A stretch of DNA of 64,000 nt from Selenomonas ruminantium subsp. lactilytica TAM6421 (GTDB taxonomy: Bacteria; Bacillota; Negativicutes; Selenomonadales; Selenomonadaceae). A model generated the notes under the pieces. It was not told the DNA's origin. It saw only the letters and a list, made by a program, of their open reading frames with translations, and made no database searches. The stretch's first letter is position 1; every line of letters begins with the position of its first letter. The DNA lies in assembly GCF_000284095.1 (NCBI RefSeq), contig NC_017068.1:2232001-2296000 (forward strand), in the 5' to 3' direction. The translations under genes were made by a program, and so were the position numbers. Below are positions 2,197 to 61,382 of this stretch, piece by piece.

Positions 2197-2286
2197 AATA
2201 ATCCCCTCCAAGGATATTATGACATATTATGAAGGAATGTGCCAGAGTGAAAAAGACAGTGCCCCTTCTGTAAGAAAATCGACAAC

Positions 2287-2469
2287 AGCCCCTTCCACCA
2301 CCTGCGGTGGTCCCCTCCCCCCAAGGGGGAGGCTGAGGGCAACTTGCCCTTGCGAAATTTTTATCTCGAAAAAAGAAACGGCTTCGGGGTACTGCATTAG
2401 CCAAAGGCTCGTACCTGATAGCCCGCCCCGTCGGGGAGGGGGGACCGCCGCAGGCGGTGGGAGGGGCTC
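2287..2469. repeat. Palindromic intergenic repeat, full copy
   Basis: An imperfect inverted repeat of about 183 bp. The left arm starts AGCCCCTTCCACC, the right arm ends GGTGGGAGGGGCT. Each arm carries small hairpins of its own, such as a GC-rich one around CCACC/GGTGG and one in the C-run/G-run segment. The centre has a further stem pairing GGTAC with GTACC at about 2388-2415. With the partial copy at 2929-3012 it brackets the DUF559 gene. Nothing else is seen in the 327-base gap from 2197 to 2523. It resembles a MITE or REP-like element, but no clear target duplication is visible. Confidence 0.7.
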
Positions 2470-2523
2470 CCAGCTCTCTTTGACATGACAAAGACAACCA
2501 TAAGCGGTTGGAACTTGAACATG

Positions 2524-2886
2524 TCATTTACCTTTTTGCAACTTTTCCTTTACCTGCATATCGATATAAGCACATACTTCAGCAAACTTTCGCTTTATAT
2601 CGCCATTAGTAAACCGCAGTACGCAAACGCCAAGTTTGGCCAATTCTGCTGTCCGCGCCTCGTCATACGCACGATTTTCGGTTTCGTAATGCTGTGCACC
2701 ATCTATTTCAATAGCCAGTTTCGCCTGATGGCAGTAGAAATCCAAAATGTAGTTCATAAACGGCCTTTGTTTGTAAAATTTGAGCTGGTAGCTTTGCAGG
2801 TAGTCGTACCATAGGTGCTTTTCTTCCGGTGTTAGGTTCTTCCTTAGGTTCTTGGCATTTTGTTTGGCTTGGTTGGTGGCGTACAT
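2524..2886 (-). CDS. DUF559 (Vsr/PD-(D/E)XK-like) endonuclease-domain protein
   Basis: A 120-residue single-domain protein of the DUF559 family, related to very-short-patch-repair (Vsr) endonucleases. The N-terminal NLRKNLTPEEKHLWYDYL and the body YILDFYCHQAKLAIEIDG match the family pattern. Candidate metal-binding and catalytic residues are D49, E60 and D62, with H66 following and a late VLRFTNGDI segment. The start is preceded by a GAGG site. Biological function is unknown for the family. It is bracketed by repeat copies at 2287-2469 and 2929-3012, with no adjacent methylase or mismatch-repair gene. The unit therefore looks like a small mobile or selfish cassette (inference). Confidence 0.88.
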   Translation of the reverse strand: MYATNQAKQNAKNLRKNLTPEEKHLWYDYLQSYQLKFYKQRPFMNYILDFYCHQAKLAIEIDGAQHYETENRAYDEARTAELAKLGVCVLRFTNGDIKRKFAEVCAYIDMQVKEKLQKGK

Positions 2887-2928
2887 TGTTTTTGCCTCTT
2901 TGATACTGTCGCTGCTTTTGCCCCTTCC

Positions 2929-3012
2929 ACCGCTGCGCGGTTCCCCTCCCCCATTGGGGGAGGCTTAAACAACTTGGCTTTATGGAACTTTCTCTCTCGA
3001 TAGGGAGACTGG
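2929..3012. repeat. Partial second copy of the palindromic repeat
   Basis: Starts GCCCCTTCCACCGC and continues through a C-run/G-run hairpin (CCCTCCCCC/GGGGGAGG), then AACTTGGC. It parallels the left half of the 2287-2469 element in the same order. The right arm is poorly preserved. It lies directly upstream of the DUF559 gene. Confidence 0.6.
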
Positions 3013-3103
3013 GAGGTGGCGTTAGCATGTTAGACCCACGTCATAGCGCAAGACAGCTGCTGCCTGCCACGCGTCTTTTGCCTCGACCCCCAAATCGTGG
3101 TAA

Positions 3104-3601
3104 TCAGATTCTGTCTCTCTTCGCATCCTCAGCAATAAGCTCTTCCAGCCGTCCCACGGTCATATCTTTCTCGGAATACACGGTAATGCCATGCTTTTGC
3201 AACAGGGCCGTGGTCACGCCCTGCCCTTTGATTTTCTTACCGTCGAAGTTACCGCCATGGATTTTCTTGACGCCGCAGGAGGGGCTGCCTTCTTTGAGGA
3301 TGGCGACTTTCGCATGGTAGGCTTCGGCAATCTTGAGCACCTTGTCGGCACCGGTCAAGAGGTACTGAGTGGTATCCATGCCGTTCTCGTCCATGGCTTT
3401 TGCTTTGCCCGTGAGGACTTTCTTGCCCGTGCCGCCCTGGATTTCCATGGCCGGTCTCGGGCAGGGCAGCATGGCGAAGCATTCGGGGCAGACGGCGATA
3501 AAGCGGCCCCGCTCGTTGTATTTTAGCAGCAGATCATGGGTATTGGCTCCCCCGCTGAATTTTACCTTATGGCCTAACAGGCAGGCACTTACCAGAATCA
3601 T
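3104..3601 (-). CDS. DUF523 family protein
   Basis: A 165-residue DUF523 (COG1683) protein, found in many bacteria and of unknown biochemical role. It begins MILVSACLLGHKVKFSGG, the usual family opening (SACLLG...Y/KxG). Conserved cysteines occur in VSACLLG, VCPECFAMLPCPRP and SPSCG. The last segment, EGSPSCGVKKIHGGNFDG, is also typical. The start at 3601 has an AAAGGGG site upstream and overlaps the stop of the exonuclease gene by four bases (ATGA), so the pair is translationally coupled. A metal or thiol role is possible but unproven. Confidence 0.88.
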   Translation of the reverse strand: MILVSACLLGHKVKFSGGANTHDLLLKYNERGRFIAVCPECFAMLPCPRPAMEIQGGTGKKVLTGKAKAMDENGMDTTQYLLTGADKVLKIAEAYHAKVAILKEGSPSCGVKKIHGGNFDGKKIKGQGVTTALLQKHGITVYSEKDMTVGRLEELIAEDAKRDRI

Positions 3602-4173
3602 CTTCGATACCCCTTTCTCCCAAACACACACACATTTATACCTAGCTTTTTCGCCAACGACTCCAAAGAATCCTCTTTTAATTCCTGCCCGGCTGCCAAG
3701 GGAATCGCTGCGCAGGTTCGTGCATCATCCATGGCATTATGATGCTGGAAATCAATATGCAGATGGGTGCCCACCGTATCCAGCTTATGATTCTCCAAAA
3801 ATGGCCAGGCCTTGCGGGCAATGGCCACTGTATCGCAGTAAGAAAAATCCGGTGCTGCCAATCCCTCCGTTGCCAGACACGCGCTCAAAACACTCATATC
3901 AAAGCGGGCATTATGGGCCACCACAATCCTGCCCTCCAAATGGCTTTTGAGTTCCGGCCAGATTTCGGCAAAGGTCGGCGCATTTTTCGTATCCTGCGGG
4001 GTGATGCCATGAATCTGCACATTGAAGTAATTGTACTTATTCATGGGCGGCTGAATCAACGTATAGTAAACGTCCTTCATCTGGCCATCTTCCACGGCAG
4101 TGACAGCCACACTGCAGGCCGAATTGCGACAGCCCGTAGCCGTCTCAAAGTCAATGGCGGCAAAGTTCATCAT
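3598..4173 (-). CDS. DnaQ-like 3'-5' exonuclease (DEDDh)
   Basis: A 191-residue exonuclease of the DEDDh superfamily, related to the proofreading epsilon subunit. Motif Exo I is FAAIDFETAT (D and E). Exo II contains VVAHNARFDMSVL. Exo III is HNAMDDARTCA, with the histidine and the final aspartate. The C-terminus, about residues 160-191, is extra and ends GRKGYRR. No polymerase domain is attached, so it is a stand-alone exonuclease, probably used in DNA repair or RNA trimming. It is followed by the coupled DUF523 gene; a link between the two is not established. The start is the first of two ATGs after AAGAAGGA; the second is equally possible. Confidence 0.88.
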   Translation of the reverse strand: MMNFAAIDFETATGCRNSACSVAVTAVEDGQMKDVYYTLIQPPMNKYNYFNVQIHGITPQDTKNAPTFAEIWPELKSHLEGRIVVAHNARFDMSVLSACLATEGLAAPDFSYCDTVAIARKAWPFLENHKLDTVGTHLHIDFQHHNAMDDARTCAAIPLAAGQELKEDSLESLAKKLGINVCVFGRKGYRR

Positions 4174-60670: not shown

Positions 60671-60686
60671 AAAGCCAACTCCTCTC

Positions 60687-60828
60687 TCTGTTCGCTTACG
60701 AGGTTAGCTGCCGGGCTCGGGTAGAGAAGACCACCCGCTTCATTACTTGTACCCTTGAATATGGCACAATCTGACGTTCGCCCCAAAAACCTGGTTCCCC
60801 CGCTCCTGGGCTGGATTCAGCTTAATCC
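60687..60828 (-). ncRNA. c-di-AMP riboswitch (ydaO/yuaA type)
   Basis: The minus-strand leader of the NlpC/P60 gene contains the conserved blocks of this riboswitch in order: GCTGAATCC, GCGGGGGAACCA, TTTTTGGGGCGAA and, at the 3' side, CCCGAGCCCGGCAGCTAACC followed by TCGTAAGCG. The class is known to bind cyclic di-AMP and to control cell-wall hydrolases and osmolyte or potassium transport, normally repressing when ligand is bound. Helix P1 is less clear here than in Bacillus. The end overlaps the region just ahead of the ribosome site, so control of translation is possible; no separate terminator was seen. Confidence 0.92.
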
Positions 60829-60957
60829 TATGTTATTTTTTTCACCCATTTATAGATATACGACAAAAAATGCCGTAATCCTGCTATTTTTTTCGCAACA
60901 CGAAATTCTGTATAACTCTAAACAATTTTCAGTTTTCTTTCAGAATTCATGCTGACA

Positions 60958-60985
60958 TGAAAAGTGGCTGTCAAAATGACAGCCA
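60958..60985 (-). terminator. Terminator of rnpB
   Basis: Eight-base stem GGCTGTCA/TGACAGCC (60966-60973 with 60977-60984) and a short T run in the minus direction. Confidence 0.8.
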
Positions 60986-60999
60986 ACATATTTCCATTC

Positions 61000-61367
61000 A
61001 AGTTGAATAAGCAATCAATAAGCCGAGTTTTGTTCCACCCACAAACGTGGGGGCGACAATCATTTATCTAGGCGCGGCAGTTGCCTGCCGGCTCAAGCGA
61101 CTCAACCCGGAAGGTTCCGCGGGCCGCATCATCCCTTCCCTATTTGGTCTTGCTCCGTGTGGGGTTTACCCAAGCCAGCCAGTCACCTGACTGCTGGTGC
61201 GCTCTTACCGCACCTTTCCACCCTTACCTGACAAGTCAGGCGGTCTAAATCTCTATGGCACTGTCCCTAAGGTCACCCTCGCTGGACGTTATCCAGCACA
61301 CTGCCCTATGGAGCCCGGACTTTCCTCATCTGGTGTCATGCACCAGCCGCGATTGTCTTGACAACTT
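61000..61367 (-). ncRNA. rnpB: RNase P RNA, bacterial class A
   Basis: The catalytic RNA that trims the 5' leader from tRNA precursors. Hallmarks on the minus strand: GAGGAAAGTCCGGGCTCC near the 5' end, GGGTAAACCCC, and ACAAAACTCGGCTTA near the 3' end. The P1 helix pairs AAGTTG (61362-61367) with CAACTT (61000-61005). A consensus promoter precedes it and a hairpin terminator follows. P1 ends set the limits, so true ends may differ by a few bases. Confidence 0.96.
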
Positions 61368-61382
61368 ATTTCAACATCGGTG

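Follow-up and report, generated by a model that had tools for sequence, protein, structure and literature searches.

Stand-alone DUF559 nuclease genes lie between BoxC/PIT/TM-like palindromic repeats and are candidate movers of these repeats

In repetitive extragenic palindrome (REP) systems, the palindromes are accompanied by REP-associated tyrosine transposases (RAYTs), which are HUH/Y1 enzymes. Another family of palindromes, BoxC/PIT/TM, was noted in Escherichia coli in the 1990s. The main text of Holder et al. (2015) gives its consensus as CCCTCNCCCN3-6GGGNGAGGGN3GGGNGAGGG, counts 23 copies in strain K-12, and describes the repeats as intergenic and as accompanying neither mobile elements nor any one class of neighbouring genes (PMC4666352). 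The same text reports the G/C-rich motif from more than 260 genomes and triplex formation in vitro by the E. coli sequence (PMC4666352). These repeats have so far been counted, melted and footprinted, and their route of spread is without explanation. The protein family DUF559 has been known separately. YcjD, the DUF559 protein of E. coli K-12, was placed in the PD-(D/E)XK superfamily by 2005, its profile detecting Vsr (PMC1189080), and Pfam still lists DUF559 as a protein of unknown function. For one DUF559 protein, VsrA of Caulobacter, it is reported that the DNA-damage response after deletion of the cytosine methyltransferase ScmA depends on it (PMC12907096). In a stretch of 64,000 nucleotides (nt) from Selenomonas ruminantium subsp. 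lactilytica TAM6421 (NC_017068.1, positions 2,232,001 to 2,296,000; hereafter the window), a solitary DUF559 gene is flanked by palindromic repeats. Here we compare this locus with DUF559 genes of other bacteria, and conclude that stand-alone DUF559 proteins are probably, with a rough probability of 0.6, dedicated mobilising nucleases of repeats of the BoxC/PIT/TM kind.

The DUF559 gene of the window (53% G/C, in a genome of 3.63 Mb) occupies 2524-2886 on the minus strand and encodes 120 amino acids (aa) with a match to PF04480 (expect value, E, 8.9e-28) and a predicted Vsr/EDxHD-like PD-(D/E)XK fold. To its left lies a compound palindrome of 184 base pairs (bp) at 2287-2470, delimited by blastn of the element against itself and by folding with RNA parameters, which give -118 kcal/mol for 2286-2480. 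It is composed of two oppositely oriented units of about 48 nt. Unit A (2287-2334, minus strand) has a hairpin at 2314-2332, a second hairpin at about 2297-2311, and a minus-strand purine tail at 2287-2296 that points away from the DUF559 gene. Unit B (2421-2470, plus strand) has a hairpin at 2422-2440 with one mismatch, a second hairpin at about 2445-2459, and the purine tail GGGAGGGG, which points to the gene. On the other side, unit C (2920-2966, minus strand) has its hairpins at 2945-2963 and 2929-2941, and its minus-strand purine tail at 2920-2928 again points to the gene. Thus the three units have a common plan, in which a perfect or near-perfect G/C hairpin is followed by a second small hairpin (ACC..GGT or ACCGC..GCGGT) and a purine tail. 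Units B and C lie 53 nt from the stop end and 33 nt from the start of the gene. A previous reading of these letters without database searches (the sequence-only reading) had described a solitary DUF559 gene between a palindromic element and a partial copy of it in the same orientation at 2287-3012. The arrangement and the coordinates are good. As for the orientation, unit C is indeed oriented as A, which it resembles by 82% over 33 nt and 83% over 47 nt, but B and C, the units nearest to the gene, are mutually inverted with both tails gene-ward. By eye, the resemblance between C and the inner portion of the left element fades past about 3010.

The genome has a single PF04480 match (E up to 0.001), namely the window gene, and a two-part exact repeat pattern matches it twice, in both cases next to this gene. 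Since the lone match and the exact pattern coincide in this way, their juxtaposition is not due to chance. BLAST of the whole element against the genome gave nine matches including itself (unit C is not listed apart), the other eight being single arms of 24-51 nt. The element gave no match in Rfam at gathering thresholds.

The window protein scores 96.8 bits against PF04480 (cut-off 20.6), with residues 6-110 on positions 2-106 of the 109-position profile. A structure model (predicted local distance difference test, pLDDT, 87.9; predicted template modelling score, pTM, 0.82) retrieved 3HRL (E 2.9e-6), 3R3P (E 1.2e-3) and Vsr 1CW0 (E 0.092, probability 0.95) with Foldseek. The former two were also nearest in a sequence-profile search (1.4e-38 and 5.6e-4), in which lines for cholera toxin B, at E 0.1 or more, were discarded as chance matches. 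3HRL is a DUF559 structure, that of a putative endonuclease-like protein of Neisseria gonorrhoeae, and 3R3P is the catalytic domain of the homing endonuclease I-Bth0305I. Across 73 aligned sequences, E22, W26, D49, F50, E60, D62, H66, R78 and R91 are invariant, among which E22, D49, E60, D62 and H66 are the presumed counterparts of active-site residues of Vsr and I-Bth0305I. As judged from the model and the alignment, DUF559 is a predicted nuclease of the Vsr/EDxHD fold with conserved acidic residues.

Bracketing by hairpins is frequent for stand-alone DUF559 genes in the family of the window. PF04480 was sought in 151 genomes of this family, and 82 had a match. Those with E < 1e-20 (48 of the 82, one in a 563-aa frame) were taken as the stand-alone type. 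The remaining matches are mostly proteins of about 140 aa covering only profile positions of about 64-108, which were taken for Vsr, and also proteins of 1,100-1,700 aa. The latter long frames hold DUF559-like domains (e.g., G016:C16:58667 and G053:C8:1134304) and probably have another function. Among 80 regions taken, 63 DUF559 regions were searched with phmmer and yielded 65 stand-alone genes; 58 of these were scored for hairpins, the rest being near contig ends or runs of N, and 55 for likeness of their flanks. Strong matches such as G013:C98, G106:C321, G082:C121 and G057:C38 lie outside this sample. A G/C hairpin with a stem of at least 8 within 200 nt was found on at least one side of 48/58 DUF559 genes and on both sides of 23/58, compared with 162/752 and 12/752 for other genes in the same regions (124 genes close to DUF559 were kept apart). 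For Vsr-type genes of the family, the figures are 1/15 and 0/15; these 15 come from 17 places, two without a gene found, which are part of several dozen matches. Hairpin density is 0.7-0.9 per 250 nt adjoining the DUF559 gene and about 0.1 further away. Moreover, the two flanks of a gene are alike (local score at least 20) in 30/55 DUF559 genes, 11/763 other genes and 2/166 genes of like size. At one locus (L062, G054:C27, 9460-10482), two equally scoring DUF559 genes stand in tandem, and the high similarity of their flanks would suit a duplication of the cassette.

The association extends to distant phyla. We examined nine of 39 matching records from plasmid and phage collections, which come from Neisseria, Picosynechococcus, Azospirillum, Deinococcus, Sinorhizobium, Novosphingobium, Photobacterium, E. 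coli and a faecal scaffold titled phage. By eye, all nine have C-rich/G-rich palindromic or near-palindromic sequence beside the DUF559 gene, some on one side only, and in seven a G/C-run hairpin with a stem of at least 7 lies in the interval from -600 to +900 relative to the start of the match, the exceptions being E. coli, with imperfect copies, and Novosphingobium, with a long loop. In the Picosynechococcus plasmid pAQ6 (L124, 5974-6339), the DUF559 gene and its repeats lie between genes for a PIN-domain and a DUF1156 protein with a DUF499 gene near, surroundings which may, as a guess, be a defence cluster. A larger, selected set, the best 80 of at least 543 loci, was then obtained by searching a single genome of each species for proteins related to four from Proteobacteria. 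These are mostly from Pseudomonadota, with single ones titled Dadabacteria, Spirochaetes, Auribacterota and Chitinophaga; 73 were scored for hairpins (161 nearby genes kept apart) and 74 for mirror tails as described below. Hairpins occur on both sides of 49 and on either side of 63 of the 73 DUF559 genes, compared with 16 and 153 of 665 other genes; among 100 genes similar in size, the numbers are 1 and 21. Their density peaks next to DUF559 at about 14 times the background. Flank likeness of at least 18 was found in 45/73 DUF559 loci but 3/665 other genes; by type, it is inverted in 39/73 loci and direct in 26/73. Thus the sequence-only reading was right in expecting DUF559 genes to adjoin repeats more often than other genes do, both in the family and in the mostly pseudomonadotal set, and the association is as good as certain.

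The repeats are not arbitrary hairpins but have a grammar. In the 48 loci with hairpins on both sides, the nearest ones mostly read, gene-ward from either side, as a pyrimidine arm, a loop, a purine arm, a spacer of about 3 nt and a purine tail. In Magnetospirillum, Ferrovibrio and Sphingopyxis loci, a second hairpin replaces the spacer, and on some sides among the 48 loci the tail is away from the gene. Because a perfect hairpin runs pyrimidine-then-purine on either strand, the orientation was read from the tails; a direction was assigned from the better tail of the nearest hairpin, at sides with a hairpin and enough sequence on both of its sides. The nearest-hairpin tails are inward in 93 cases and outward in 15 in the 80-locus set (p 6e-15), and inward in 35 and outward in 2 in 30 order-wide loci, which are the top-scoring ones of a second survey described below and not a random draw. 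Two control sets gave 44 versus 43 and 15 versus 20. A detector for mirror-tail units found inward units on both sides of 37/74 DUF559 loci and 0/664 other genes, and any such unit in 63/74 and 34/664, respectively; inward units number 49 on the left and 48 on the right. In the 30 order-wide loci, any unit was found in 21 and inward units on both sides in 11. In the family of the window, the strict detector found any unit in 36/59 DUF559 genes and 68/759 others, and the tail GGATGAGG is gene-ward in 26 flanks and away in 11, compared with 51 and 46 for other genes. The inward rule is therefore solid in Pseudomonadota and a tendency only elsewhere.

In the triplex code, a third-strand tail follows the stem in mirror order, stem G being matched by G and stem A by A or T. 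The tails in the 80-locus set tend to follow this order. Among 159 hairpins, 138 have an asymmetric purine arm; in 64 of these the mirror is the better match to the tail, in 10 the direct copy is, and in 64 the two are level (p 9e-11). The mean mirror fit is 6.59, and it falls to 5.27 when tails are swapped between hairpins, the top of 300 swaps being 5.54. Typically, GGGGAGAGGG is combined with GGGTGAGGGG, or GGGGGAGGG with GGGTGGGGG. Neither this mirror-tail (intrastrand triplex) grammar, which is that of BoxC/PIT, nor the reach of the link into distant phyla was noticed in the sequence-only reading.

Indeed, BoxC/PIT/TM and DUF559-flanking repeats have in common a CCCTC-type arm, a loop, a GAGGG-type arm, a 3-nt spacer, a mirror purine tail and the occurrence as inverted pairs. 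The mirror purine third strand after the hairpin is present in the flanking repeats of the 80-locus set, whereas the window units depart from the E. coli consensus by a second hairpin instead of the 3-nt spacer and by another stem sequence. One K-12 copy adjoins ycjD, the DUF559 gene of this strain: TM_ECO no. 9 in Table 1 of PMC4666352 is at 1,351,204-1,351,239, between fabI (1,350,251-1,351,039) and ycjD (1,351,407-1,351,760; NC_000913.3), and we confirmed the consensus motif in the ycjD-fabI interval of the K-12 sequence. A word search of the main text of that paper found no ycjD, DUF or endonuclease, so that the link to DUF559 is not drawn there. In the open-access literature searched, no earlier account of DUF559 genes together with such repeats came to light. 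At three K-12 loci, paired copies stand tail to tail with 28-29 nt between them, and the DUF559 cassette resembles a pair of this kind that encloses a gene. In the sapF-fabI interval of E. coli (L132, L133, L134), ycjD with its repeats and the efflux operon eefRABCD are alternatives at one site (PMC12817139). This interval without ycjD was considered as an empty site and rejected, as the efflux operon is there in the two strains examined.

The number of repeats in a genome depends on the presence of DUF559, as implied by the sequence-only reading. In the family of the window, the pattern CACCTTCCCCN{0,8}GGGGAAGG, which is one common variant, averages 14.7 copies in the 48 genomes with DUF559 (median 7) but 2.1 in the 103 genomes without it (median 0; Mann-Whitney p 2e-10), and the backward control gave 0 in the rows shown. 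Fewer than three copies of this pattern are found in 14/48 DUF559 genomes, where single patterns miss other variants. The order-wide survey covered 200 genomes from the order to which a Xanthomonas (L166, G156) belongs, 55 of which have DUF559 at E 1e-12 or better, and used the stem pattern CCCTCYCCN{1,10}GGRGAGGG, the backward form of which gives 0-4. Stems number 54.9 on average (median 45) in the 55 genomes with DUF559 and 1.26 (median 0) in the 145 without. At least six stems are found in 43/55 and 5/145, respectively (odds ratio 100, Fisher p 5e-27). These counts treat genomes as independent of kinship. Within the 80-locus set, the stem CCCTCTCCC/GGGAGAGGG was found in 18 of 20 DUF559 genomes, 4 of which are also in the order-wide set, with up to 213 copies and a backward control of 0 in all 20; genomes of Lelliottia and Microbulbifer have about 200 stems each. 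In the 55 order-wide genomes, 3,022 stems face 90 DUF559 matches, so that the stems far outnumber the genes and nearly all lie away from one; therefore, any mobilisation must act in trans. Among these genomes, the stem number varies only weakly with the number of DUF559 matches (Spearman 0.29, p 0.03). In an Azospirillum genome (G168), stems are often paired about 110-119 bp apart, and from this spacing the inverted pair may be the moving unit.

Repeat class and gene lineage also go together. With the stem classes GAGA, GAG, GAAG and GAGAAGG, which are our own labels, the left and right stems are of the same class in 24 of 29 loci read on both sides, where 34% is expected from class frequencies. 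On a DUF559 tree of 72 of the 80 proteins, 52 of them with a stem class and 40 of 69 inner branches left open, the class changes 13 times, compared with 21.5 +- 1.6 changes when shuffled and never fewer than 17 in 500 shuffles. Two Variovorax species (L153, L197) have different DUF559 lineages and different stem classes behind what is, by eye, apparently the same upstream coding sequence. Species descent alone therefore fails to explain the pairing, and the Variovorax site may be a hot spot or a place of replacement.

Sites without the cassette are found in relatives. The stretch 2227-3107 of the window is absent from three of 22 genomes of the genus (L217, L220, L222), in which conserved blocks with the flanking genes are about 25 nt apart; the rest hold other sequence or were not resolved. 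In Deinococcus psychrotolerans, a DUF559 gene with 56-bp inverted ends (one mismatch) lies between paaD and paaZ, and in Deinococcus sp. QL22 (about 78% identical) the paaD-paaZ gap is 83 nt and has no cassette. At alx-sstT of E. coli, two strains are without 75 bp of the pair, as if deleted between the two CCCTCTCCC arms. No empty site was found for the Azospirillum plasmids, for which the seven matching records all cover 99-100% of the query. The neighbours of the DUF559 gene in the window, at 1390-2211 and 3104-3631 (175 aa), are presumably a Cof-type hydrolase and a DUF523-type protein, as we recognise them by inspection of their translations. Between unit C and the latter, and included in the stretch that the three congeners lack, about 3020-3107 holds a part (about 85 bp) of another kind of repeat, which is apparently palindromic, measures roughly 300 bp and ends by eye in gtggtaat or similar. 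This repeat fills, again by eye, the intergenic site beside the same gene in four congeneric genomes (L218, L221, L223, L224), and this site seems to attract insertions. Elsewhere in the window, RNase P RNA and a c-di-AMP riboswitch are adjacent at 60677-61368 (minus strand), which is ordinary.

Taken as a mobile system, these elements could work as follows. The repeat unit, with its G/C hairpin, its short spacer or second small hairpin and its purine tail mirroring the purine arm of the stem (clearest in Pseudomonadota), would let the G-rich single strand fold back into a three-stranded structure. This triplex is likely to be the form recognised by DUF559. The Vsr/EDxHD-fold nuclease, presumably metal-dependent, would recognise the folded unit of its own lineage on an exposed strand, e.g., at replication forks, and nick or cut beside it. 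Break repair or strand transfer may then copy the unit, or the whole cassette with the gene between two units, into new intergenic sites. Gene-less units, often as inverted pairs, would be the scattered non-autonomous products of such transposition. That DUF559 is the mover is probably the most economical reading of the bracketing, the copy-number effect in trans and the cognate pairing.

Several observations speak against this reading or restrict it. No cutting, excision or insertion event was observed in what is a comparison of sequences. Target-site duplications were found at none of the sites compared in the genus of the window, at alx-sstT and ygfF-gcvP of E. coli and in Deinococcus; these comparisons gave cassette-free sites, or sites with one unit fewer, but no exact insertion boundary. 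In vivo footprinting in E. coli saw no stable triplex (PMC4666352). Outward mirror-tail units occur on the left of 24 and on the right of 20 of the 74 loci, and in D. psychrotolerans the rule is reversed, the tails being outward. The inward rule is weak in the family of the window, with 41 nearest-hairpin tails inward and 24 outward (p 0.046) and both sides inward by the strict detector in only 1/59. The window tails score 8 for the mirror and 7 for the direct copy in B, and 5 and 4 in both A and C, a partial match to the mirror; the tail that is common in the family is a tie at 5 and 5. As these tails hardly separate the two orders, the case for a triplex rests on the other phyla. The hairpins and genomes counted are related, so that the p-values overstate the number of independent events. 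Furthermore, 12 of the 55 order-wide DUF559 genomes have fewer than six stems of the searched pattern. Abundant repeats without DUF559, which would speak against the idea of the sequence-only reading, do occur in a minority of genomes: five of the 145 order-wide genomes without the gene carry at least six stems, and ten of the 103 family genomes without it hold at least ten pattern copies. In seven of these 15, no profile match is found even at E 5, and seven have only long-frame, Vsr-like or weak matches. The remaining one (G274; L288, G274:C2) has 36 stems, no intact DUF559, and a broken DUF559 remnant beside a repeat unit.

Such repeat-rich genomes, together with the known behaviour of inverted units as sites of rearrangement (PMC4666352), would suit an account in which the repeats spread by other machinery or by replication slippage and DUF559 is a passenger caught between two units. 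This is unlikely, because other genes are almost never bracketed, none of the 664 having both tails inward, and because the copy number tracks DUF559 and hardly the Y1 transposase. The repeat class, too, tracks the DUF559 tree even between the two Variovorax species at apparently the same site. If the other machinery were RAYT, and the repeats thus ordinary REPs, one would point to the Y1 transposases in 62/151 family and 106/200 order-wide genomes and to their slight positive link with the number of stems if DUF559 is left out of account (mean 19.6 versus 12.0, p 0.015). The split by genotype contradicts this: stems average 59.8 with DUF559 and no Y1 (n=18), 52.6 with both (n=37), 1.9 with Y1 alone (n=69) and 0.7 with neither (n=76). 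In the window genome, a search for Y1 transposases (PF01797) at E 1e-5 found none. On the stratified counts, a RAYT mover is very improbable and was set aside. The Y1 transposase is the one gene family used as a control in these correlations.

Two further accounts assign DUF559 a task for the host. It may be a repair nuclease that removes replication-blocking folded repeats and is retained by repeat-rich genomes, so that the cause runs from the repeats to the gene. The Vsr-like fold and the instability tied to triplex motifs (PMC4666352) agree with this, and a copy-number correlation alone gives no direction. But the oriented bracketing of the gene at many unrelated places, the cognate pairing and the cassette-free sites are left unexplained, which makes it slightly less probable still than a passenger role. 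Alternatively, DUF559 may act in restriction or mismatch repair in connection with cytosine methylation, the repeats only aiding its spread. The dependence of the damage response on VsrA in Caulobacter (PMC12907096) is in favour of it, but no methyltransferase is among the neighbours recognised in the window, and we regard this as improbable. Thus the role of a dedicated mobilising nuclease remains the best explanation.

Should this role be causal, a large class of bacterial repeats would be accounted for by a single gene family, a new type of enzyme would join the nucleases of mobile elements, and a candidate protein that reads an intrastrand triplex would be at hand. The origin of the BoxC/PIT/TM repeats, so far without a mover, would be explained, and DNA triplexes would be the substrate of a dedicated enzyme. 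E. coli K-12, which has ycjD and 23 repeats, offers an immediate system for testing the link.

Among known systems, Vsr and the EDxHD homing endonuclease I-Bth0305I, which is a mobile-intron enzyme, have the fold in common with DUF559. I-Bth0305I differs by its added DNA-binding parts (PMC3943268), and Vsr-type genes of the window's family, unlike DUF559 genes, are not bracketed by hairpins. Caulobacter VsrA has the DUF559 domain itself and the only in vivo phenotype that we met; it is reported in the context of cytosine methylation (PMC12907096). With miniature inverted-repeat transposable elements (MITEs) and their autonomous partners, DUF559 cassettes have in common the gene-less copies of cassette ends, and terminal inverted repeats are present as the 56-bp ends in D. 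psychrotolerans and as the inverted likeness of flanks. They differ from them in that no target-site duplication and no known transposase domain were found. In REP/REPIN-RAYT systems, as here, a small nuclease gene is flanked by palindromic repeats, the repeats are lineage-specific and form inverted pairs, and many copies are non-autonomous; the inverted units B and C of the window are an example of such flanks. The gene encoded with the repeats is DUF559 and not a Y1 (HUH) transposase, however, and the REPs of RAYTs bear GTAG-type tags (PMC3733652), whereas the PD-(D/E)XK enzyme of the Vsr/EDxHD fold goes with repeats that bear a mirror purine tail. The likeness to REP/RAYT seen in the sequence-only reading thus survives as a way of working and fails as an identity of enzymes. 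Mobile elements are classified by catalytic domain, and to our knowledge none depends on a lone nuclease of the Vsr fold. That DUF559 elements constitute a new class of mobile DNA across bacterial phyla, with a solitary Vsr/EDxHD-fold nuclease and an intrastrand DNA triplex as recognition structure, seems slightly better than an even bet. By analogy, their way of working would resemble that of REP/RAYT, with a fold and a repeat that are unrelated.

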